Positions 1-13,377 of a stretch of 32,151 nt of DNA are shown piece after piece. Below the pieces are notes generated by a model. That model made no database searches. It was not told where the DNA came from and was given only the letters and a program-made list of their open reading frames with translations. Positions within the stretch are counted from its first letter, which is position 1, and every line of letters starts with the position of its first letter. The stretch is from a virus: positions 1-32,151 of the IMG/VR virus record IMGVR_UViG_3300005581_000075; one strand, 5' to 3'. Both the position numbers and the translations under genes were made by a program.

Positions 1-104
1 AAAAACTAATTGATCTTGGTCGATATATGACCATAGAAGAAGCGCAGGCGGCGTACACAGCTTTTGCGCAGCATGCATTTGCTGAATACCACGTTCCTGC
101 ATAA
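1..104 (+). CDS. C-terminal end of an AP2/HNH-type phage protein (partial)
   Basis: Only the last 33 codons are in the window; the frame is open from base 3 to the TAA at 102-104. The tail contains LGRYMTIEEAQAAY and ends FAEYHVPA. This follows the pattern of the AP2-type DNA-binding domain at the C-terminus of many phage HNH endonucleases (glycine, aromatic, 'T.EEA..AY', then an aromatic-rich end). The catalytic part would lie off the left edge. Being next to head genes fits a free-standing homing-type endonuclease in the structural cluster. The assignment rests on a short tail, so the family is probable and the function is inferred. Confidence 0.6.
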   Translation, partial: KLIDLGRYMTIEEAQAAYTAFAQHAFAEYHVPA

Positions 105-112
105 GGAGAAAC

Positions 113-343
113 ATGCAAGTAGAGATCAAATTTAAGCGCACCGGTTCACATAGTGTTTACGGCAACTTCGCCGCAGGCGATGTGATGCGGTGTGACGAGG
201 CCCTGGCCGCTTTCTATGTGAAAGACGGTGTTGCCAAGTACGTCAATGCAGAGCGGCCGGACGCCATTGTCCAGGCAGAAAACGCCGCATTGACGCCGCC
301 AATCAATAAGCCAAAACGCACGGCAAAATCAGCATCAGTTTAA
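113..343 (+). CDS. Small head-region protein (76 aa), unknown function
   Basis: The start is supported by a strong AAGGAG four bases before the ATG. The protein is a small, mostly polar domain (residues 1-50, with 'NFAAGDV' and 'YVKDGVAKYV') followed by a basic Ala/Pro/Lys tail. Small proteins of this size lie between major capsid and connector genes in many HK97-type phages; their role is mostly unknown. Its layout (a glycine turn, 'GD/GE' then V, an acidic 'EA' helix, then 'G.A') resembles the N-terminal domains of the next two genes, suggesting they share a fold. No enzyme motif is visible. Confidence 0.75.
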   Translation: MQVEIKFKRTGSHSVYGNFAAGDVMRCDEALAAFYVKDGVAKYVNAERPDAIVQAENAALTPPINKPKRTAKSASV

Positions 344-365
344 AAAGACTGAAAGGTAAAAAATC

Positions 366-2057
366 ATGACCATCCGAATGCTCCACTCTTTCAACGGGCT
401 GTTTACCGGAGAACTGGTTACCGATTTGACATCGGAGGAGGAGTCGCGGCTGGTCGGCCTAGGACTCGCTACCCGTGCCATATCAGGGGATACATCAGAT
501 GTTCCTCCAGCGCCTCGTTCCAGGGTTGCATATTCTGTTGCTGAAATTCAAGACGCGCACGATGAGCTGGTTAGCCTTGGCGGTGGTGCGCTGCACTTTG
601 TCCCTCAAGCGGACTACGTTTGGAAAAGCACAGACCCATCGATCAACATAGACAGCACGTACGTTGATCTTTATTTCAATCGATCAAGGCACAACCTGAC
701 GGCGTGCGCCGATGGTTTTGAGGCGTTTAAGTTTGCCTCCACCGTGGTGGGAAATCAGAACACTTTTGCGCAGCGATGTATTTACGATCCTTGGATCTTC
801 ACGGACAACGACGGCGCACTCGCAGACTCTGGGCCTATTGCATTTAGATTTGATGCGACCACGGCGAGCACGTCAAACCGTCTGCAAATTCACCGTGCGC
901 GTCTTAAGGGTCTGAAGCGCGGCATATCTCTCGGGTCCAGAAGCTATTTTGTTCGGATGTACAACCCACACATTACGCGGTGCCGTCATGCGCTTTATCA
1001 GTCATCGTCGCCTTCTGACTTCGCAGAGATGGTCACAGCTGAAGGCGGTGTATTTGATGACAACTACTCACACCTAACGGACGTCGGCGGCCAAATTTGG
1101 CGTTTCAAGACTTGCAGTTTCGACTACCACACGGGCTACTTGTTCGATCTGTCTGCTGGGGCTAAGGTTTTCGGCGATGACGTTCACGGCGAGTGGAGCT
1201 ACGGCGAAGATGTTGCGGACACCAACTCCCCGATAAGGCTTCAGGGGGCCAACTGCGGCGTTCAGCTTGATGGTGGTTCTGTTTTGGCCTATGTTGGGGC
1301 GGGACAAAACCCCTATTACACCTCGCTTGTCAGCGCAAACAACTCAAGCCAGAAGGTTATTCTGAAGCTGGCCAAGGCTTCTAAGTTGGGGCGGCTTACG
1401 GACACAACAGGATATGACGCGCTCGTCGCCACTTCTGGCGGCGTTAGTTGCAAGGTGGATTTTGAGGTGCAGGCAGACGGTACGGCTGTTAGTGACGTTC
1501 CGACAATGACCCTTGTTGCAGAGGGTGGCGGGGTTATCGGCCAGCTCCGCAACGGCGAAGACGACATTTACAACGAACTCGTTCACCGGATCGCTGTCAC
1601 GGGCTCCGCTGCTGTTTCGAGAGTGACCGCAGATGAAAACGGCGTAACACGCAAAAACAGCAAAAACATGCTGAAGATAACCGGGGTTGGCAAGGTGTTA
1701 ATTGCCTTCCCGCAGACAGACGGGTCTCGTCGGCATGCTTGGTCACTTTTCACAAACCCGGCGTTTGTCACTGGGTCCGTCACTATCAAAGAACGCCAGA
1801 CCGGGTTCTCGCCGAAATTCGACGGCACGACTGTGACCTGGGCGGCAGACACAAGGGGTGCGCAGTACAGCGCAACAACTGTCACCGTATCTGCTGGCGC
1901 TAATGCGTGGACTCGGCAAAGTTGGAAGAGCTGCAACACAGTTTTCTACCCATCGCAGCGGCAAAACGTATCGGGGGCAATCCTGATCGAGATCGACACC
2001 GCGTCAATGTCAGCCGGTGCCTTGTACCTGTCTCACGCCGGATTCGACCTTCTGTAA
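366..2057 (+). CDS. Spike-like protein with beta-helix-like body (563 aa)
   Basis: Residues 1-36 form a short domain beginning MTIRMLHSFNG, 26 of 36 residues identical to the start of the protein at 2172. The body (about 50-420) is rich in short beta-type stretches, Gly, Asn and aromatic residues, with an entry segment ('VAEIQDAHDELVSLGGG') typical of right-handed beta-helix tailspikes and pectate-lyase-fold proteins. The last 140 residues look like a separate beta domain. Such proteins bind or cut surface polysaccharide. No catalytic residues can be assigned by eye. The position is odd: it sits in the head cluster, before the connector gene, not with the tail fibres. A weak AAAGGTAA precedes the start. 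Confidence 0.7.
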   Translation: MTIRMLHSFNGLFTGELVTDLTSEEESRLVGLGLATRAISGDTSDVPPAPRSRVAYSVAEIQDAHDELVSLGGGALHFVPQADYVWKSTDPSINIDSTYVDLYFNRSRHNLTACADGFEAFKFASTVVGNQNTFAQRCIYDPWIFTDNDGALADSGPIAFRFDATTASTSNRLQIHRARLKGLKRGISLGSRSYFVRMYNPHITRCRHALYQSSSPSDFAEMVTAEGGVFDDNYSHLTDVGGQIWRFKTCSFDYHTGYLFDLSAGAKVFGDDVHGEWSYGEDVADTNSPIRLQGANCGVQLDGGSVLAYVGAGQNPYYTSLVSANNSSQKVILKLAKASKLGRLTDTTGYDALVATSGGVSCKVDFEVQADGTAVSDVPTMTLVAEGGGVIGQLRNGEDDIYNELVHRIAVTGSAAVSRVTADENGVTRKNSKNMLKITGVGKVLIAFPQTDGSRRHAWSLFTNPAFVTGSVTIKERQTGFSPKFDGTTVTWAADTRGAQYSATTVTVSAGANAWTRQSWKSCNTVFYPSQRQNVSGAILIEIDTASMSAGALYLSHAGFDLL

Positions 2058-2068
2058 GACAAACCGAG

Positions 2069-2141
2069 TTCAACCAAGCCAGCCAAGTGCGGGCTCTTTT
2101 ACGTCTAAACATCAATGGCCCACAAGATCATCACGCCAGCC
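2069..2141. repeat. 73-bp direct repeat, left copy
   Basis: This 73-bp stretch matches 3573-3645 at 68 of 73 positions; the last 41 bases are identical. It covers a decayed terminator stem, its T-run, the short leader and the first nine codons of the connector gene. The five mismatches all lie in the terminator part, whose stem is broken in this copy. The two copies are 1504 bp apart and bracket the SGNH spike gene. Confidence 0.95.
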
Positions 2142-2156
2142 GCTGGTAATCCGTAA
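2115..2156 (+). pseudogene. Duplicated 5' fragment of the head-tail connector gene
   Basis: The reading frame starts MAHKIITPA, exactly as the connector protein at 3619, then diverges to AGNP and stops: 13 codons plus stop. It is a left-over copy of the connector start, created when the spike cassette was duplicated or inserted. It probably has no function as a peptide, but it is a clear record of recombination at this point. Confidence 0.85.
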
Positions 2157-2171
2157 AGCAAAAGGTAAAAC

Positions 2172-3563
2172 ATGACAATTAAGATGCTTCACTCGTTTAA
2201 CGGTCTAGCGCCCGGACAAATTGTTACGTCCTTGACGCCCACCGAGGAATTGCGGCTTGTTGGCTTAGGCATCGCAACATACGACGCATATGATGCTGTC
2301 GTTCAAGACCCCGACAATCTAGAGGTTTTGACAAAAACTGGTTCAGTTATTGCCAGCTCTCGTATTAACGGTAGGCCGAATAGCACTGGCGCGTCTGCAT
2401 TTACCATGCACGGGTGCTTTCCTAGCCCGGTTAAATTTACGCATGTGCAGCTTGTTTATGAAAGCGTGGCTGCTTTTGCCACAATAAATGCTGTCGTTGC
2501 AGCCAGCGCCGCAAAAAACAATGGTTACACGCCAAAAAATGCGGCTAATGCTGATGTCACATCGGGAACCGTCGTTACATTTGGCACGACGGATCCGAAC
2601 AACTTTACGAATCCAGGCGGCGGGGCGGCCACAAGCGCCATGCCTGCGGCTGTGTCTGGAAGTGATGCTGGCGCGAACGTAATCGCTGGGCGGTTGTTTT
2701 CAGACATTATCAGTTTGCCTGCTTTGGATCGTATCGACGGCGGAACCAATTACCTTGCCATGGTTCGCACGTATGGGGCACTCGGCATACCGGGTTCATC
2801 ACTGCCAACCATCAGCCCAGGATACGCAACGCCAAGCGCCGGGACAGTACAAAGCATTGAGCCTGATTGGTCGGGGGGGTATCAAACCGGTGGCGACTTC
2901 ACTGGCGGCAGTTACTCATCCTACAACCCACCGTCATTTGATTGGATCACGCCCGCAGGTGTAAGGTTTTTCTGTGAATCAGAAGTCAAAACGGTCGCCA
3001 GCTATGGTGACTCAACAATGACCGGCTGGGCAGTTGCACCTAACGATTTTGGTGGATGGATTAACGGTTATGTGCGCAGGGCTGTTAGGCAAATTCTTAA
3101 CAAAGGCAAAAAGGTAACTCACTGGAATAACGCATTCCAAGGGAAGAAAACTGAATTTCTTGAAAACCTTATCAGAGAAGTTCCAATATTAAAACCTGAT
3201 ATTGTCATTTTCCATGGTTGGTCAATAAATGACGGAACCTCGCAAAATGCTTTTGATACAGCATGGCAAAGAGTGACAAAAGCCTGGTCAACATGCGCGA
3301 ATAATAGAATTATGTCTATTGTTTGCACGGCAATGCCAGCAAACATTTCAACTGGCGCAGAAGATGACAGGAGAATAGCGTTTAATGAGAAGATTAGATC
3401 TAGCGGGCAAAGGTACTTTGATGCTGATAGATTGATGAGTAATTTTGCATACCCTGCGAGAATAAAAACATCACTGCAGACCGGAGATGGCACACACCAA
3501 AATAATGCTGGTCACCAGTTTCTTGCCGACAAGCTTGAGGAATACTTGAGTAAGTTGATATAA
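2172..3563 (+). CDS. Spike-like protein with C-terminal SGNH/GDSL esterase domain (463 aa)
   Basis: Residues 1-36 repeat the N-terminal domain of the preceding spike. A Gly/Ala/Ser-rich beta region follows to about 270. Residues 274-463 form an SGNH hydrolase: block I GDS with Ser281 as nucleophile, the 'GWSIND' stretch at 349-354 matching the Gly-x-Asn-Asp block, and 'DGTH' with Asp439 and His442 completing the triad. Phage SGNH domains typically de-acetylate surface or capsular glycans, so the product is likely a receptor-processing enzyme carried on the particle; the substrate is unknown. The DNA from about 3050 is visibly more AT-rich than its neighbours, consistent with recent acquisition of this domain. 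Confidence 0.85.
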   Translation: MTIKMLHSFNGLAPGQIVTSLTPTEELRLVGLGIATYDAYDAVVQDPDNLEVLTKTGSVIASSRINGRPNSTGASAFTMHGCFPSPVKFTHVQLVYESVAAFATINAVVAASAAKNNGYTPKNAANADVTSGTVVTFGTTDPNNFTNPGGGAATSAMPAAVSGSDAGANVIAGRLFSDIISLPALDRIDGGTNYLAMVRTYGALGIPGSSLPTISPGYATPSAGTVQSIEPDWSGGYQTGGDFTGGSYSSYNPPSFDWITPAGVRFFCESEVKTVASYGDSTMTGWAVAPNDFGGWINGYVRRAVRQILNKGKKVTHWNNAFQGKKTEFLENLIREVPILKPDIVIFHGWSINDGTSQNAFDTAWQRVTKAWSTCANNRIMSIVCTAMPANISTGAEDDRRIAFNEKIRSSGQRYFDADRLMSNFAYPARIKTSLQTGDGTHQNNAGHQFLADKLEEYLSKLI

Positions 3564-3572
3564 TTCCGCCGA

Positions 3573-3645
3573 TTCAACCAAGCCCGCCCCGAGCGGGCTT
3601 TTTTACGTCTAAACATCAATGGCCCACAAGATCATCACGCCAGCC
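3573..3645. repeat. 73-bp direct repeat, right copy
   Basis: This is the partner of 2069-2141. It contains the intact terminator after the SGNH spike and the true start of the connector gene, so it is probably the ancestral junction. Confidence 0.95.
3582..3604 (+). terminator. Intrinsic terminator after spike genes
   Basis: Stem GCCCGC/GCGGGC with loop CCCGA is followed by six T. It lies between the SGNH spike and the connector gene, inside what must be one late transcription unit, so late polymerase must be able to read through it. Confidence 0.85.
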
Positions 3646-4173
3646 ACTGCCGTTATCACCACGGCAGACCTGAAGTCATTTCTGCGCGTTGATTCCAGCG
3701 CAGAGGATTCGTTGATTGACGGATTCTTGCTGGCCGCAATGGCGAAGGTCCAGCACGATGCAAACTTGGCTATTGGAGTGCAGACGATTGAGCTTGCCTT
3801 AGATGCCTTCCCTGATGGCGGGATCAGCCTGCCTCTCATCCCAGCAGCGTCAATCACAAGCGTGACCTATGTTGACACGGCTGGAACTACGCAGACGCTT
3901 TCTTCAGCGCTCTACTTCCTAAACGACTACTCGACGCAAGACCATCAAGTGACGCTTGTTTACGGTGCGGAATGGCCCGATACACGCGACACGACGAATG
4001 CCGTGAAGGTTAGGTATGTGGCCGGAAGTGCGACATTGCCAGCATCGGTTAAGGCCGCGCTAATGCTTCTGGTCGGCCATCTCTACGAGAACAGACAAGA
4101 GGCCACAGAGAAGGCGCTGCACAGCCTGCCAATTGGCATCACGGCCTTGCTTGACCCTGGCAAGGTTTATTGA
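3619..4173 (+). CDS. Head-tail connector protein, gp6-like (184 aa)
   Basis: The N-terminal helical part ('LKSFLRVDSSAEDSLIDGFLLAAMAKV') is the hallmark of the HK97 gp6 / phiE125 gp8 connector family: short helix, 'D..AEDSLI', then a helix with regularly spaced Ala. A middle beta region and a C-terminal helix (residues 145-170, ending in 'GHLYENRQE') also fit. The protein forms a ring beneath the portal that joins the head to the tail. Length is normal. The promoter-proximal 27 bases of coding sequence are duplicated upstream at 2115. Confidence 0.9.
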   Translation: MAHKIITPATAVITTADLKSFLRVDSSAEDSLIDGFLLAAMAKVQHDANLAIGVQTIELALDAFPDGGISLPLIPAASITSVTYVDTAGTTQTLSSALYFLNDYSTQDHQVTLVYGAEWPDTRDTTNAVKVRYVAGSATLPASVKAALMLLVGHLYENRQEATEKALHSLPIGITALLDPGKVY

Positions 4174-4175
4174 GA

Positions 4176-4514
4176 ATGAGTGACATCGGCAAGTTCAACC
4201 GCCGCGTGGTCATCCAGGCGCGGTCAGGCGCTGTTGACAGCGTAGGCCAGCCAGTAGAGGACTGGTCAACGTTTGCGACGGTTTGGGCGCAGTTCGTTTT
4301 TACGCCGGGCTCTCGCATCCCCAACATTGAGGGCATTCGAGGTGGCGCTATGTCGTCAAACCCGCCTGCAATATGGCGCGTCAGGTTCAGGACGGATATC
4401 ACAGCGGCCATGCGATTGGTTGACGGATCGACGGTCTACAACATCGAGCAAGTCCTGCCAAACATGGCAAAGAAGGACGTCACAGACTTGGTATGCGAGG
4501 TCATCAATGGGTAA
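4176..4514 (+). CDS. Head closure / head-tail adaptor protein (112 aa)
   Basis: The opening 'MSDIGKFNRRVVIQ', then 'D..GQPVEDWSTFATVWAQ' and a C-terminal 'VDGSTVYNIEQVLPNM' match the SPP1 gp16-type head-tail adaptor family: a small beta-barrel that plugs the connector after DNA packaging. I choose the ATG at 4176, preceded by AAGG at 4162-4165, rather than a TTG two codons upstream. It overlaps the next gene by 8 bases, which fits translational coupling. Confidence 0.88.
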   Translation: MSDIGKFNRRVVIQARSGAVDSVGQPVEDWSTFATVWAQFVFTPGSRIPNIEGIRGGAMSSNPPAIWRVRFRTDITAAMRLVDGSTVYNIEQVLPNMAKKDVTDLVCEVING

Positions 4515-5040
4515 TGCCACGTTCAGCATGGGTCTGAATTTGTCAGACCTTGATGGCTTCATTAACGCATCGAAAGAAAAGATCCAGGCCGCTGTTCGCC
4601 CAGCCGCGCAAGCTGGCGCACAGGTGCTTTACGAAGCAGTTAAGTCAAACGCTGGACGAAACAAGAAAACAGGAAACCTTGAGCGCTCGATTTACCAGAA
4701 GTTCAGCGAGTCCAACAGCTCAGAGCTAAAGGCCACATATCACATCAGCTGGAACCAAACCAAGGCCCCTCACGGATTTTTGCTTGAGTATGGGCACATC
4801 CAGCGATACAAGGTTTACACCGGTTCCGATGGCAAGTGGTACACGGCGGTTCGCAAGGCAATGCAGGGCAAACCAAAGCCAAGCCGAAGGGCTCCTCAGG
4901 CTGTGAAAGATGCCTATTACGTGCCACTGCCAAGCCTTAAATACGTGCCTGCAATCCCCCTTGTTCGTTCCGCTGTTGTGTCCCATGGAGAAAAGGCTGT
5001 TCAGGCCATGAGAGATGAGTTCGCGAGGCGGCTGGCATGA
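4507..5040 (+). CDS. HK97 gp10-like tail-completion/neck protein (177 aa)
   Basis: After a short lead, the protein shows the gp10 pattern: a helix with 'AAQAGAQVLYEAVKSNAG', then 'KTGNLERSIYQK', a conserved 'HGFLLEYGHIQ' and 'VPAIPLVRSAV' before the C-terminal helix. Family members act at the head-tail junction or at the tail terminus. The frame is open further upstream, but that part runs antiparallel to no feature of the family and overlaps the head-closure gene; the ATG at 4507 gives normal length and a short overlap. Confidence 0.88.
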   Translation: MGNATFSMGLNLSDLDGFINASKEKIQAAVRPAAQAGAQVLYEAVKSNAGRNKKTGNLERSIYQKFSESNSSELKATYHISWNQTKAPHGFLLEYGHIQRYKVYTGSDGKWYTAVRKAMQGKPKPSRRAPQAVKDAYYVPLPSLKYVPAIPLVRSAVVSHGEKAVQAMRDEFARRLA

Positions 5041-5393
5041 CTGTTGAGGCTGACATCACAACCGTTCTCAAGACGCAATGCGCTCGGGTGTTCCCTGACT
5101 TTGCGCCGATGAGCACGACTCGTCCCTATGTGACTTACCAAAAAATTGGCGGCAGAGCTATCAACCTTTACGGCAAGGTGGTCCCAGACAAGGCGCTGAG
5201 CATGTACCAGGTCAACGTCTGGGCAGACACCAGGCTGCAGGCCGATGCGCTGTCGTGGTCTATCGACGCGGCCATGAGAACGGCCACCTTGTTCGATGCC
5301 AAACCAGAGACGGACCCTGTATCAGTCTTTGAAGACGATGAACCAAATCTAAGGGGCACTAGGCAGGATTTTGCCGTTGTCCACAACCGATAG
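5037..5393 (+). CDS. Tail completion protein, DUF3168 family (118 aa)
   Basis: The order 'EADITTVLKTQCARVFPD', 'RPYVTYQKIGG', 'YQVNVWADTRLQADALS' and a late 'RGTRQDFAVVH' follows the DUF3168/gp17-like tail-completion family, which caps the tail end that joins the head. It overlaps the previous gene by ATGA, so translation is coupled. Two terminators follow before the major tail gene. Confidence 0.88.
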   Translation: MTVEADITTVLKTQCARVFPDFAPMSTTRPYVTYQKIGGRAINLYGKVVPDKALSMYQVNVWADTRLQADALSWSIDAAMRTATLFDAKPETDPVSVFEDDEPNLRGTRQDFAVVHNR

Positions 5394-5412
5394 GGCCTAG
5401 CCCTTCCACATA

Positions 5413-5442
5413 AGCCGCCACGGGAAACCTGGCGGCTTTTTT
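5413..5442 (+). terminator. Intrinsic terminator before major tail gene
   Basis: An eight-base stem AGCCGCCA/TGGCGGCT with a nine-base loop leads into a run of six T. Confidence 0.9.
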
Positions 5443-5466
5443 GTTGCCCACCTCGGGCATTTAACC

Positions 5467-5487
5467 GCCTCCTTCCGGGGGCTTTTT
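5467..5487 (+). terminator. Second, tandem terminator before major tail gene
   Basis: Stem GCCTCC/GGGGGC (one G-T pair), loop TTCC and five T. It lies 25 bases after the first terminator and 21 bases before the major tail gene start. Confidence 0.65.
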
Positions 5488-5507
5488 CATTTCTGAAAGG
5501 CAATCCC

Positions 5508-6152
5508 ATGGCTTTATATTTTCCCGAGGGAGCAAAGTTCTACTTCTCCCAAACGTTCGCATCGGCAAAAACCATTACCGTCTTGACCAATGCAAATCCC
5601 GCTGTTGCCACCTCTGTGGCCCACGGCTACGCAGACAACGACGAAATCTTGCTGACATCCGGCTGGGAGGACGCCACCGATACGGTGTTCAAGGTTGACC
5701 AATTGACCGCCGACACCTTCTCGCTTCTTGACTTCGACACAAGCAACACCGGTTTTTACGCCGCTGGCACGGGTATTGGAACCGCTCAAAAACTGTCTGC
5801 CTGGACTGAGATTCCTCAAGTCTTGACCATCGCAACCAGCGGTGGCGATCCACGCTACACCGAAGTGAACTTGTTGGCCCGTCGCAATGGTGTTCGCATT
5901 CCTACCGGCTTCAACCCGGCCGACGTGACTTTGACGCTGGCTCACGACCCAGCCAATGCCAACTACAAAACGATGCTGAACATCAGCCGCACCAGCACGA
6001 AGGTCGCGTTCAAGCTGGCGCTCGCCAGTGGTGCCACTTCTTACGGTTACGGCTACATGGCAGTGTCGGACGTTCCGCAGATGAACGCCAACCAGGTCAA
6101 TCAAGTGACCGCTGCATTCTCGATGCTCGGACGTACGATCAGCTACTCCTAA
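5508..6152 (+). CDS. Major tail (tube) protein (214 aa)
   Basis: Position, size and composition fit the major tail tube protein of a siphovirus: a beta-rich, Thr/Ala/Ser-rich protein directly after tail-completion genes and directly before the assembly chaperone. Residues 25-75 ('VATSVAHGYADNDEILLTSG', then 'FSLLDFDTSNTGFY') form an inserted beta domain of a kind often seen in tail tube proteins. The start has AAGG eight bases upstream. It is isolated by terminators on both sides, as expected for a gene needing high output. Confidence 0.85.
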   Translation: MALYFPEGAKFYFSQTFASAKTITVLTNANPAVATSVAHGYADNDEILLTSGWEDATDTVFKVDQLTADTFSLLDFDTSNTGFYAAGTGIGTAQKLSAWTEIPQVLTIATSGGDPRYTEVNLLARRNGVRIPTGFNPADVTLTLAHDPANANYKTMLNISRTSTKVAFKLALASGATSYGYGYMAVSDVPQMNANQVNQVTAAFSMLGRTISYS

Positions 6153-9900: not shown

Positions 9901-11100
9901 CTTAGCAATGTTCCTATCTACGTAAAAAACGAATTTGACAAACTAGGCGACAACGCAACCACCGAAGGCATCGGCATTCTGGTTGACCAGATCGGCGTAT
10001 TCCAGGGCCAGCTATCAGCCATGAAGCTGGCCATCGGATCACTTGGTTCCGCCTCTGATGCCGCACTGGCAAGCATCATCGCCAACGTGGGCGGCATTGA
10101 GCAATTCTCAAGCGCTGTCGATGCCTATTACCAAAACTTCTTCACCGAGGCTGAGCGCCTAGCTTTCTCAACTTCGCAGCTGTCGGCAGAGTTCGAGAAG
10201 CTTGGCGTTTTGATGCCGACAAGCCGAGAAAGCTTCAGGGGCCTTGTGGATTCCATTGATACCGCCACAGAGTCAGGGCAAAAGCTCTATGCGGGCCTAT
10301 TGAGCCTCGCTGGTTCATTCGCGGCAGTTGTGCCAGAGGCAGAAAAGGCTAAGGCCGCAGTCGGTGCGGTAGTTCAAGAAGTCGGTGCGATAGTTCAAGA
10401 CGTAGGTGCGATAGTTCAAGAGATCGTTGCAACAGCACAGGCCGCATCCTTTACGCCCCTGCCATCCACGTATGGTTCATATGTCCAGGATGGCGTGACG
10501 TTCATTGTCGGCAACCTGAACGACCTAGCTGCGGCATCATCTGGTGCGGCGAACTCTATTGGGCAGGTAACTGATGCGATAAATGACGCATCTAGCGCAT
10601 GGAAAGCGGCAGCGGATTCGATTGATGCTGAGATTAGAAGGATACGAGGGGATATAAACGGTACGGGCAAAGATGGGCAGGCAGAGGCTTTAGCAAACTT
10701 TGCGACGCTAACTGCAAGGGCTAGAGCCGGAGAGGTTAGCGCCGCTTCTATGCTGCCAAAAGCAAGCCAAGACTATTTATCTTTGGCCGCCGGTAATGCC
10801 TCGTCCGCTTCAGAACTTCGCAGGGCTCAGTCAACAACCCTGGCAAGTTTGATTCAGACACAAAAAACGCTTGCGTTGGCTCCTGCAATTGGATTTTCGT
10901 CTCCGAGTTATCCGGTTATGACTGGAACATCTGCGGCGTCTTCAGGTTCGTTAGATGCGCTTATTGCTGAGGTAAAGGCGTTGAAGCTGTCGATTGAGAC
11001 CGCTCAAGCGGCATCAAACGTCAACACCAAAAAAACCGCTGACATTCTGGTGAGAGTGACAGAAGGCGGCGATGCAATGCTGACGAGGGCCGCGCCATGA
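6985..11100 (+). CDS. Tail tape measure protein (1371 aa)
   Basis: This is the longest gene of the window, as expected for the protein that sets tail length. Residues 1-130 are charged and helical. A TMP_2-type segment follows ('AALRQVPAQFTDIAVSLQGG', 'LVNPFTLAAAAIGAIAFAY', the latter hydrophobic). Long coiled-coil regions span about 400-720. A lambda-H-type C-terminal signature follows ('GFDNGKGFAENFRDTIKNMF'), then a Gly/Ala/Leu-rich hydrophobic region (about 755-850). Three copies of a seven-residue repeat lie near residue 1130. I start at the ATG at 6985 because the frame upstream reads through the terminator hairpin. The stop overlaps the next gene by ATGA. Confidence 0.93.
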   Translation: MADNPKIQAEIGLNADPAVQGFEKVKKAGEQAAQSLKASGEKAEQALKGTGEQADESAKKIIQAEGRIEAALKRRIALEEASLKGQRAVDEARISNRGLDPAKFSPYLDQLERVRQQQDAVRNSMVNSAKSLDYVGLSAKQATAALRQVPAQFTDIAVSLQGGQNPLTVLLQQGGQLKDVFGGVGNAARALGGYVAGLVNPFTLAAAAIGAIAFAYEKGANEQREFEKTLILTGKAAGVTAGQLSDISARIDQFSGATQGKAAEALNVFANAGIKGASNLERFTATAIEFERAGGGALETVAENFAKLGKDPLKASLALNESTNFLTRSLYEQIKALEDQGKSVEAARVAQDAYNSALQDRTPQLLQNLGYIERGWNAIKDATKGAIDAAFNVGRASNPIDDARAAFSASQVRVERLRQLGPGVDNQRAIAAELARGEASKQILFNLQEQEKFERKISGLKAEQLVSVKASAAWDEARAKFLTNEEQVTRTIADLRSKANTAMRGADAEQQTKIQAELAAAEKQARESAASKQSAKDPTDSPVYKEALRAAKLRQELRIKENEEIDKFIRETTDKQIEGYRKLKEAASDAANKAFVDQYTSSQKSIDSLKEQIDKEKEAAAAIGLTKDAIADLEAAKLDELAASKDRLAISKLERNESDALYETYKEEADSLRALAQAKRERGIKAAEFDELKKYNDELKKSAEELNKSLTDAIMRGFDNGKGFAENFRDTIKNMFKTLVLRPVISAIVNPVSQGISGLLGGGSAGGGFGGLGGLGGLIGGGISSFTAGFQGAGLAAGLAGPTTLGAGGLTGFGAALGASPFAGALSALGTSMPYIGAALALYSVFKEKKTPHLGSAVNANIFGATTDRTDYLAGNFNAQTDDALRFLTLGSVGSLNKLDRAFGGSGDFSANAKFAADNKDASAADATIFRGSQEIAALFGEGYKLYTKDAGEAFKQFTQDFDGLTLQAIKSLSNVPIYVKNEFDKLGDNATTEGIGILVDQIGVFQGQLSAMKLAIGSLGSASDAALASIIANVGGIEQFSSAVDAYYQNFFTEAERLAFSTSQLSAEFEKLGVLMPTSRESFRGLVDSIDTATESGQKLYAGLLSLAGSFAAVVPEAEKAKAAVGAVVQEVGAIVQDVGAIVQEIVATAQAASFTPLPSTYGSYVQDGVTFIVGNLNDLAAASSGAANSIGQVTDAINDASSAWKAAADSIDAEIRRIRGDINGTGKDGQAEALANFATLTARARAGEVSAASMLPKASQDYLSLAAGNASSASELRRAQSTTLASLIQTQKTLALAPAIGFSSPSYPVMTGTSAASSGSLDALIAEVKALKLSIETAQAASNVNTKKTADILVRVTEGGDAMLTRAAP
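10360..10422. repeat. Three 21-bp tandem repeats in the tape measure gene
   Basis: Three consecutive 21-bp units encode VGA(V/I)VQ(E/D). Units differ at only one to three positions. A length change here would alter tape length by seven residues per unit. Confidence 0.9.
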
Positions 11101-12149
11101 TTGTTATACCGCCGATTGATATCACAGATGCAATGCTTACAAGTAGCTCCGCATACGAGGCGGCTCCGGCGGCTTACAACTCCGGGACAACGTACTCAAT
11201 AAATGCTTATGTGAGCGTTGCTGGCTCGCTCGGTCAAATAACAGTTTATAGATCATTGCAAAACTCTAACCTTAACCACACTCCGGCATCTAGCCCGTCA
11301 TGGTGGGAAAACCATTGCAATACTTATAATGTATACAACGGGTCGACAAATTACCTTGTAGACGAATACGCAATTGACACAACAACTCACAAAATATATA
11401 GAAGCCTTGTCCATCCAAATTCTGGAAACGCTCAGACAGATACAGACTTTTGGGAATTTATAGGCACAACAAATAGATGGGCTATGTTTGACACCGACAG
11501 AAGCGCTGGCACGGTGCAGGCCGCGCCTATTGTTGCTGTCTTGACACCGGGTCAGCGAGTCAATTCTTTAGCATTGACTGGTTTGATCGGTAGCTATGTG
11601 ACTGTCTCGATGACGGTATCAGCAGTTAGCGTTTTCTCTAGAACGATATCAATTACCGGTAGACAGACTCTCACTTGGTCTGATTATTTCTTTGGTGACT
11701 TTGAACATGTTGAAAGCGTATTGATAACTGACCTACCTCCGTATTCCAACGGAGTAATAACGGTCACGATATCAGGGACTGGCGTTGTTCAGTGTAGCTC
11801 GCTTGTTATTGGGCTTGTCGTAAACATTGGAAGGGTGATTTATGGAGCTAGGAACGACGCATTAAACTTTTCGCGTATCGAGCGCGATGATTTTGGCAAC
11901 AGTGTTTTAGTACCAAGAAGAACAGTTCCGAAAACAAATCAAACGATTCTATTCAACAAGAACCAGACAAATACACTAATTGGCATCAGAAAATTGCTCA
12001 ACGCAAAGCCCGCAGTTTGGTCCGGTGTTGATGACGAAAACTCTGATTATTTTGAGTCGTTGCTGATTATTGGAATCTACAAACAATTCGAGATCGAACT
12101 AACTCACCCTTCGCATGGCATGTTGAATCTTGAACTTGAGGAACTGTAA
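11097..12149 (+). CDS. Tail-tip protein with two carbohydrate-binding-like repeats (350 aa)
   Basis: It follows the tape measure with an ATGA overlap, the usual place for a distal tail or tail-tip protein. Residues 27-73 ('YNSGTTYSINAYVSV...SWWEN') and 75-121 ('YNGSTNYLVDEYAID...DFWEF') are two copies of a small domain opening with Y-N/G-T/S-Y and closing with a Trp/Phe pair, like the short chitin/carbohydrate-binding modules on phage fibres. The rest is beta-rich and ends with 'HGMLNLELEEL'. The DNA is more AT-rich than that of the tape measure. The exact family is not recognised. Confidence 0.65.
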   Translation: MIVIPPIDITDAMLTSSSAYEAAPAAYNSGTTYSINAYVSVAGSLGQITVYRSLQNSNLNHTPASSPSWWENHCNTYNVYNGSTNYLVDEYAIDTTTHKIYRSLVHPNSGNAQTDTDFWEFIGTTNRWAMFDTDRSAGTVQAAPIVAVLTPGQRVNSLALTGLIGSYVTVSMTVSAVSVFSRTISITGRQTLTWSDYFFGDFEHVESVLITDLPPYSNGVITVTISGTGVVQCSSLVIGLVVNIGRVIYGARNDALNFSRIERDDFGNSVLVPRRTVPKTNQTILFNKNQTNTLIGIRKLLNAKPAVWSGVDDENSDYFESLLIIGIYKQFEIELTHPSHGMLNLELEEL

Positions 12150-12949
12150 TGGCAATAACGGCACCACCAACAATTGCGGCGCTATCTACGCCGCCGACAA
12201 CTGCAGATCCGACAACGTTCGACACTCGTGCTGACACGTTTCTTTCAGAGCTTACGCCATGGGCTGGGGACGTTGGGGACGTTGCTGACAACGTATTTGA
12301 CAACGCAACAGAAGCGTTTAACTATGCAACTTCAGCATCTTCATCCGCATCTACCGCGACAACCCAGGCCAACGCTGCTGCTGCGTCGGCTGCAAGCGCC
12401 CTGGGCGCACCAGGCACCAACGCGACCAGCACGACAAGCACGGCGACCGGCACGGGATCGAAGACGATCACGATTCAGACCGGCAAGGCGTACTCGGTCG
12501 GGCAGAGCGTCATCATCGCACGCACTAGCGACCCGTCAGGCGTTCGCATGGGCGGGGCGATCACGGCCTACAACAGCGGCACCGGATCTTTGACTGTGAA
12601 CGTGTCCATTGCTGTCGGCAGCGGGACACACACCGACTGGACGATATCGCTTGGCGTGATCGCAAACTCTGGCATCTTGCCGATATCAGCCATCACGACG
12701 AACACGTCGGCAACGGTTAACACGGACTACCTGATTGATGCCGACTCGGTGGTCCTGACAGCCCCGACATCAAAGTCGGTGGGCGACTTGTTTCAGTACC
12801 AAATCATGAACAGCCGCGCGACATGCTCTGTCGATTTTGGCTCCGACAAATTGTTTGGCAGAACACCGGGCGTTATGTCGCTGGCGAGCCCAAATTCACG
12901 CGGGAAACTGCAATGGTCTGGTTCAACTTACGGATGGATTGACGCATGA
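12149..12949 (+). CDS. Tail fibre-like protein (266 aa)
   Basis: The N-terminal 60 residues ('PPTIAALSTPPTTADPTTFD', 'FLSELTPWAGDVGDVADNVF') resemble the attachment segment of many phage fibre proteins. An Ala/Ser/Thr-rich helical stalk follows (about 60-90), then a beta domain with 'GKAYSVGQSVIIARTSDPS' and 'MGGAITAYNSGTGSLTVNV', a motif common in tail fibres, and a C-terminal beta domain ending 'KLQWSGSTYGWIDA'. The likely role is host binding at the tail tip. It is coupled to its neighbours by one- and four-base overlaps. Confidence 0.8.
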   Translation: MAITAPPTIAALSTPPTTADPTTFDTRADTFLSELTPWAGDVGDVADNVFDNATEAFNYATSASSSASTATTQANAAAASAASALGAPGTNATSTTSTATGTGSKTITIQTGKAYSVGQSVIIARTSDPSGVRMGGAITAYNSGTGSLTVNVSIAVGSGTHTDWTISLGVIANSGILPISAITTNTSATVNTDYLIDADSVVLTAPTSKSVGDLFQYQIMNSRATCSVDFGSDKLFGRTPGVMSLASPNSRGKLQWSGSTYGWIDA

Positions 12950-13377
12950 GCATAGATACAGAATTCTTTGGCGGTCAGCCGCCAAAATGGGTTAGCGGTA
13001 CAACGTACCCGCTTGACTTCATCGTTCGCAGCCCTGCGAGTCAGCATCACTATGTGCGGATCGTTGCTGGAGCCGGGACAACAGACCCAAGCGCGGACGG
13101 CACGAATTGGGCTCGCGTTGGGGCCGGTGGCATCAAGAGCATCCAACGCGGTGTTATTTCGTTTTCTGCAGCATCTGCAACAGCGACGGTTTCATCGGTT
13201 GACACAAACAAATCCAGGCTCACTAAGCTGGGGAATACAAACAATGGCGGCGCGTCAGCGACGCAAGCTAACGACGAAACAAATATCGTTTTGACAAACG
13301 CCACAACGATAACGGCGACAAAAAATGGGACAACTCAAACTGTCGTTGTTTCGTATGAGCTTGAGGAGAAGTGGTGA
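12946..13377 (+). CDS. Fibre-associated protein with carbohydrate-binding-like N-terminus (143 aa)
   Basis: The N-terminal half ('WVSGTTYPLDFIVRSPASQHHYVRI', then 'DPSADGTNWARVG') has the same Y/W-spaced module pattern seen in the tail-tip protein, typical of short carbohydrate-binding modules. The C-terminal half is a Ser/Thr/Ala-rich beta region. It overlaps the fibre gene by ATGA and the next small gene by three bases. It is likely a fibre accessory or a second fibre segment. Confidence 0.7.
   Translation: MSIDTEFFGGQPPKWVSGTTYPLDFIVRSPASQHHYVRIVAGAGTTDPSADGTNWARVGAGGIKSIQRGVISFSAASATATVSSVDTNKSRLTKLGNTNNGGASATQANDETNIVLTNATTITATKNGTTQTVVVSYELEEKW

Follow-up and report, generated by a model that had tools for sequence, protein, structure and literature searches.

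The window analysed here, a 32-kb IMG/VR fragment of a virus (record IMGVR_UViG_3300005581_000075; 32,151 nucleotides), encodes two large proteins of 563 and 463 amino acids (aa) that begin with the same small domain, hereafter the anchor, and continue into different bodies. A free-standing 76-aa protein, SM76, is encoded just before them, and the interval from the capsid gene or SM76 homologue to the gp6-like head-tail connector gene is referred to below as the slot. On balance, we lean towards a reading in which glycan-processing enzymes are docked on the head (or neck) of the virion by a fused post-capsid domain resembling lambda gpFI, and are exchanged by recombination inside that domain. 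The phenomenon is real and conserved, and wider than a reading of this one sequence could have seen.

In the proposed mechanism, the first ~38 residues of both proteins would be a small capsid-associated domain, copied and fused at the N terminus, which these and other phages also make as a separate protein from a gene behind the capsid gene. The anchor would bind the head shell, like the gpFI domain that it resembles, and hold the fused body outward. The comparisons below show that the domain is shared, that modules are exchanged, where the genes lie and that the anchor is related to post-capsid proteins; gpFI-like docking, display on virions and enzyme activity are what we infer for the anchored proteins. 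The bodies would be enzymes acting on surface glycans, namely SGNH O-deacetylases, CE4-like deacetylases and beta-helix lyases or hydrolases, and would trim or bind host capsule or O-antigen before the tail engages. Recombination inside the anchor would swap, add or remove enzymes, and because the anchor is common to all of them, no new assembly parts would be needed. The elements concerned are:

113..343, + strand: SM76, free-standing 76-aa post-capsid protein (open reading frame, ORF; small beta-alpha domain, disordered basic tail)
366..2057, + strand: 563-aa anchored protein (ORF) with a beta-helix tailspike-like body, weakly matched over residues 175-338
366..482, + strand: anchor domain copy 1, about 39 residues, supported by the hidden Markov model (HMM) family, an AlphaFold2 (AF2) model and the end at 473 of the upstream DNA homology to locus L003
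2172..3563, + strand: 463-aa anchored protein, SGNH esterase-like (PHROG 6102; L003 orthologue 93% identical)
2172..2288, + strand: anchor domain copy 2, 26/36 identical to copy 1 and a member of the HMM family
3006..3014, + strand: SGNH block I of the 463-aa protein, Gly-Asp-Ser, residues 279-281
3486..3497, + strand: SGNH block V of the 463-aa protein, Asp-Gly-Thr-His, residues 439-442

Comparison of the two large proteins revealed 26 identical residues among the N-terminal 36, just as the original prediction from the sequence had described, and no detectable likeness beyond the N terminus. When the 563-aa protein was used as query against the record, the only part of the 463-aa gene to match was its copy of the domain (70% over 37 residues, E 1e-10). 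The shared N terminus is not a product of chance, since an iterated HMM recovers many further N termini of slot proteins with E-values of 1e-15 to 1e-24.

The body of the 463-aa protein matches the lipase family PHROG 6102 (E 5.5e-8) and has the SGNH Ser and Asp-x-x-His blocks (GDS at 279, DGTH at 439). It falls below the curated Pfam cut-off for Lipase_GDSL (14.5 bits, 23.6 needed), and a relative, L106, passes Lipase_GDSL_2. A PDB match (E 0.56) was rejected as chance. Third-position GC content is lower in this gene (0.448) than in the backbone of neighbouring structural genes (0.564), and therefore fits the expectation for an acquired module. A relative of the SGNH body that has no anchor is present in L004 (3834-5072, Gordonia phage Zany gp5); the gene lies in the head region, directly after the portal gene and a gene annotated as minor tail protein, and before a MuF-like gene. 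For the 563-aa body, residues 175-338 gave a weak tblastn match to Serratia and Klebsiella beta-helix tailspikes (E 3e-4); there was no match in Pfam, PHROG or PDB, and no close relative was confirmed in IMG/VR. The claim that the bodies are unrelated, one beta-helix-like and one an SGNH esterase, is thus borne out by the lack of similarity outside the anchor and by the SGNH blocks, with the beta-helix assignment left weak. Among receptor proteins of Klebsiella temperate phages, the two main enzyme classes have SGNH and pectin-lyase-like folds (PMC13123978), and esterase activity is on record for related tail proteins (PMC11654681).

The anchor family was extended from the iterated HMM by a degenerate DNA pattern run over IMG/VR and by profile searches of genomes from the family and order of a Rhodoferax metagenome-assembled genome (MAG). 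These added L105, L106, L107, L108, L112, L114, L115, L116, L117, L119 and L121, the L116 protein being identical in L120 and L122. The final set comprises 25 proteins from viral contigs and prophages, and the domain is always N-terminal. GDSL/SGNH bodies are found in the window's 463-aa protein, L003, L006, L027, L072, L106, L107, L114, L116, L117 and L119, with Pfam GDSL matches in L006, L072, L106, L107, L114, L116 and L117. Polysaccharide-deacetylase-like bodies are found in L019, L020 and L061 (Pfam deacetylase matches in L020 and L061), and the L066 body is related to that of L020. Beta-helix-like bodies, assigned from weak similarity or by eye, are found in the 563-aa protein, L009 and L115; the remaining bodies have no class. 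The predicted arrangement, a common small domain carrying interchangeable carbohydrate-active bodies, is therefore seen across 25 anchored proteins with unrelated bodies, and the list of C-terminal partners that the original prediction had called for contains SGNH esterases, polysaccharide-deacetylase-like domains and beta-helices. Searches of Pfam, PHROGs and PDB sequences with the anchor, in which a known tail-attachment domain would have spoken against the idea, returned no such catalogued domain; the best PHROG match (E 0.028) was an unnamed family. An IMG/VR scan with three close anchors returned L003 alone. A search for the anchor in 369 class-level and 398 phylum-level genomes yielded only the known Rhodoferax contig; such fusions are therefore rare and, among genomes, were seen here only near Burkholderiales.

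L003 is the one close IMG/VR relative of the 463-aa protein (93% identical). Its contig carries genes for terminase, portal, protease, capsid protein, SM76, the 463-aa protein and the connector, without the 563-aa gene, and the L088 contig, binned as a Rhodoferax MAG, is 100% identical over L003's 7535 bases. L003 is collinear with the window over 113-473 (88%), stopping at codon 36 of the 563-aa gene, and collinearity resumes at 2161-4174 (90%). Of the informative sites in the first 60 bases of the L003 anchored gene, 14 speak for copy 1 and 3 against it; past base 108 the gene follows copy 2, and the remaining body is about 90% identical to that copy. A breakpoint scan put the change from one copy to the other at about base 70 (permutation p 0.0002 over 144 bases, a value that is partly trivial, as the 563-aa body is unrelated past base 108). 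Because the 5' part of its anchor matches copy 1 and its body matches copy 2, L003 appears to join a first-type anchor to the body of the second gene and looks like a chimera joined inside the anchor, which would make the anchor the point of exchange. For the 5' part of this signal, a weaker alternative is that anchor copy 2 has diverged faster. A simple recent tandem duplication was rejected, as the anchor copies are 72/108 identical in DNA and L003 shows exchange.

The anchor has free-standing relatives next to capsid genes. Pseudomonas phage PG1 encodes an 86-aa protein with the anchor domain between the capsid gene and the connector, and Marinobacter phage AS1 and Burkholderia phage BgVeeders33 each encode a free-standing domain protein just after the capsid gene. 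An anchor-only profile matched these three proteins at an hhalign probability of 96% (E 4.9e-9), a level reached by 0/100 column shuffles. The three proteins in turn matched SM76 (E 1.3e-4), and a profile of anchors together with them matched SM76 at 79.6% (E 1.5e-5); all observed profile scores exceeded those of 100 column-shuffled profiles. As the match to free-standing post-capsid proteins beats all shuffles, it is well supported by profile comparison that the anchor is a fused copy of a post-capsid domain; kinship with the window's own SM76 is moderately supported. The proposal that the 76-aa protein shows a similar short domain accordingly stands when bridged profiles are used, and loses force in direct comparison (E 0.018-0.06). 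Two tandem SM76 domains occur in the small post-capsid protein of L122 (1106-1561), and also in L120 (14111-14473).

The AF2 model of SM76 comprises a beta-alpha domain followed by a disordered tail, without the added N-terminal domain of gpFI. Foldseek matched it to the gpFI C-terminal domain 2lsm at rank 3 (probability 1.00, template-modelling (TM) score 0.63 by target, E 0.077). The gpFI C-terminal domain is the capsid-binding part of that protein. In lambda the order is E-FI-FII, with FI between the capsid gene E and FII, the same place as SM76. Family profiles of gpFI aligned in register with SM76 and the anchors at marginal E-values (0.0005-0.006) that were above all 100 shuffles, and the motif PG..RVs..A..li..GLA is in register between gpFI and the SM76 and anchor profiles. 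SM76 has no Pfam match. We propose from the models that SM76 may be a gpFI-C-like capsid-binding domain, and by analogy the anchor would dock on the capsid in a gpFI-like manner; this likeness is the main reason for favouring capsid docking. It is known that gpFI sits on the gpE lattice of the prohead (PMC4856287).

As gpFI is itself a packaging chaperone (PMC4856287), the anchor could instead be an assembly or packaging chaperone fold on proteins that are not virion parts, the enzymes acting in or on the lysogen as cargo (morons), and the slot is indeed often empty and sometimes flanked by homing endonucleases. We regard this as highly improbable: the enzymes belong to the same classes as virion receptor enzymes, their genes are embedded in the late structural operon, and the anchor begins at residue 1, leaving by inspection no room for a signal peptide.

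The placement of the anchored genes was analysed in relatives, using the L003 capsid protein as query, with 80 loci kept. SM76 homologues directly follow the capsid gene in nearly all capsid-relative loci (74 ORFs, 61 distinct). Among 46 capsid relatives with both borders, the slot is empty or short in 35 and filled in 11. Anchored fillings are found in L003, L006, L019, L020/L022/L024, L027 and L061, and also, with no connector detected by BLAST, in L009, L015, L016, L043, L066 and L072; other fibre-like proteins fill the slot in L034, L040 and L059. Because anchor-free genes also occupy the interval (a GDSL protein in L018, a homologue of phage GP4 fibre gp80 in L040 and a zinc-carboxypeptidase-like protein in L090), the slot is, by gene content, a general site for accessory, mostly fibre-like genes. 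Anchor-free multi-gene fibre-like insertions were noted in L040 (3792-4196; its gp80 relative GP4 is a Ralstonia phage), L090 (6512-8539), L008, L034, L059, L091 and L093.

The anchored gene directly follows the SM76 homologue in 18 distinct loci, the window included. In L072 an anchored SGNH gene directly follows the capsid gene, and no 76-aa homologue was detected between them (4860-4937), the anchored gene taking that place. In loci where the right border can be seen, the next gene is usually the gp6-like connector; L105 has one extra gene, and in L066 no connector was seen. The features of the window that flank the slot are:

3..104, + strand: remnant of an HNH homing-endonuclease-like gene in which the window begins; it encodes the C-terminal end and aligns with the C terminus of L006 5956-6468 (local alignment score 155)
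3619..4173, + strand: gp6-like head-tail connector, right border of the slot (Phage_connect_1, E 8e-8; PHROG 442 head-tail adaptor, E 1.6e-24)
4170..4514, + strand: head completion protein (Phage_HCP, E 1.6e-19)

Downstream of the 463-aa gene the order is gp6-like connector, head completion, gp10-like, tail completion and tail tube. The capsid gene is absent from the window, and an adjoining capsid gene is visible only in relatives (L003, L088 and others). A position between capsid-side genes and the connector, as first suggested, is therefore confirmed in relatives, while in the window itself the upstream remnant is an HNH endonuclease. Its counterpart, L006 5956-6468, is an HNH_3 gene (E 1.3e-15) placed between the capsid gene and the 76-aa homologue; HNH homing-endonuclease-like genes separate these two genes in some relatives (L006 5956-6468; L017 5204-5704).

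Several results weigh against head docking, some of position and some of similarity. In L107 the anchored gene lies between the connector (Phage_connect_1) and head completion protein (Phage_HCP) genes, in a locus where no capsid gene was detected with the L003 capsid query. In L119, whose capsid is of the Phage_capsid_3 type, and in L108, which has a similar arrangement, the anchored gene follows genes assigned as neck-type by inspection, which argues against a strict head-only reading. These loci, and the usual proximity of the anchored gene to the connector gene, would fit neck spikes, in which the anchor binds the connector or head-completion ring and a collar of enzymes sits at the portal vertex. 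We consider this somewhat unlikely, as the anchor's relatives are post-capsid and not neck proteins and the fold match of SM76 is gpFI, which binds the capsid lattice.

A further contrary case is L121, where the anchor is found in a tail-tip/fibre cluster, after a 1011-aa protein that is putatively tail-tip-like, to judge from its neighbours and an fn3 trace. The L121 protein (5193-5687) consists of the anchor and a short beta-rich body, and is the one clear exception to head-neck placement. Such a gene would be expected if the anchored proteins were ordinary tailspikes carried on the tail, their gene position being incidental; an L072-like SGNH protein is also found in the tail-tip cluster of Caulobacter phage DMCA, and the tail receptor proteins of temperate phages are mostly of these enzyme classes (PMC13123978). 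This explanation is distinctly unlikely in our estimate: the anchor is in a tail-tip position at only 1 of about 24 loci, 5 of 16 records searched whole have it, as a single copy each in the head slot, and separate tail-tip/fibre-like genes are present in the window at 11097-13377. The statement that these genes do not lie with fibre genes thus applies to the head-neck cluster of most loci and fails for L121.

As to similarity, the AF2 model of the anchor (20 rows) is a beta-beta-alpha-beta domain with a predicted local distance difference test score of about 90 over residues 1-30, and the PDB structures closest to it are ribosomal L9 N-domains (TM about 0.6-0.7, E 0.1 and above); the best viral matches are uncharacterised small phage proteins. 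Anchors alone match SM76 weakly when the bridging proteins are left out (E 0.018-0.06, as above), Foldseek E-values are weak for such small domains (0.08 for 2lsm), and lambda gpFI and Mu gp35 go undetected by sequence HMMs, scoring at shuffle level. PDB sequence searches with the anchor and 76-aa profiles gave no relatives, a match to TruB being rejected as chance. The anchor and SM76 might then be unrelated, convergent L9-like mini-domains, the L9-like fold being small and common, and the anchor's head placement would lose the support of SM76. We judge this unlikely, since the bridging free-standing proteins link the two above all shuffles and since the anchored gene of L072 occupies the place after the capsid gene, where no 76-aa homologue was found.

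Docking on the head by a gpFI-like domain is the reading we retain. Its extension to a general phage strategy, in which phages copy a gpFI-like domain that binds the capsid lattice and join it to exchangeable glycan esterases or depolymerases, the shell itself then carrying coat-opening enzymes that are swapped by recombination inside the anchor, is a tentative proposal that we rate a little below an even chance. Host-range enzymes are sought in tail-fibre clusters, and if a post-capsid domain also holds such enzymes on heads or necks, many receptor-processing enzymes have been overlooked or assigned to the wrong virion part. It would also provide a ~38-residue, naturally modular docking tag for enzyme display on capsids, and it gives a testable role to the very common, uncharacterised small genes after capsid genes.

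A limited and incomplete literature search found no description of enzymes anchored by a post-capsid domain. Each ingredient has precedent in Hoc-GDSL proteins, RcGTA head spikes or modular tailspikes, and the combination appears undescribed; the suggestion of a new way to arm virions is therefore fair for this anchor, the principle itself being on record. Modular N-terminal anchors are standard on tailspikes. Tailspike depolymerases and SGNH tail fibres likewise have a conserved N-terminal part to which beta-helix or SGNH bodies are joined interchangeably (PMC13123978; PMC11654681), but they attach to tails and their genes lie in tail-fibre clusters. The Hoc-GDSL proteins of Karamvirus (Enterobacter phage CC31 and relatives) have, according to a database record note, a capsid decoration domain followed by a GDSL/SGNH enzyme, and the L072 body matches PHROG 9703, 'head decoration'. 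They differ in their Hoc anchor, in belonging to T4-type myoviruses, in a gene away from the capsid gene and in showing here no swappable series. The head spikes of the Rhodobacter capsulatus gene transfer agent, RcGTA (Rcc01079/Rcc01080), are also head-borne and attach particles to the host capsule polysaccharide (PMC7296036), whereas they use a jellyroll pentamer base and a separate fibre, bind without enzymatic action and have no domain found in common with the anchored proteins. The anchor is a predicted ~38-residue domain, not an Ig-like or jellyroll base as in Hoc-type or RcGTA-type head spikes. The ribosomal protein L9 N-terminal domain is the best PDB fold match of the anchor model, without functional link, and probably has a mere mini-fold in common. 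Lambda gpFI differs in its extra N-terminal part, in the lack of a fused enzyme, where the domain here is N-terminal, and in marginal sequence similarity; it is alike in the place of its gene, immediately behind that of the major capsid protein, and its C-terminal domain, 2lsm, is the rank 3 match of the 76-aa model, at a weak E-value.

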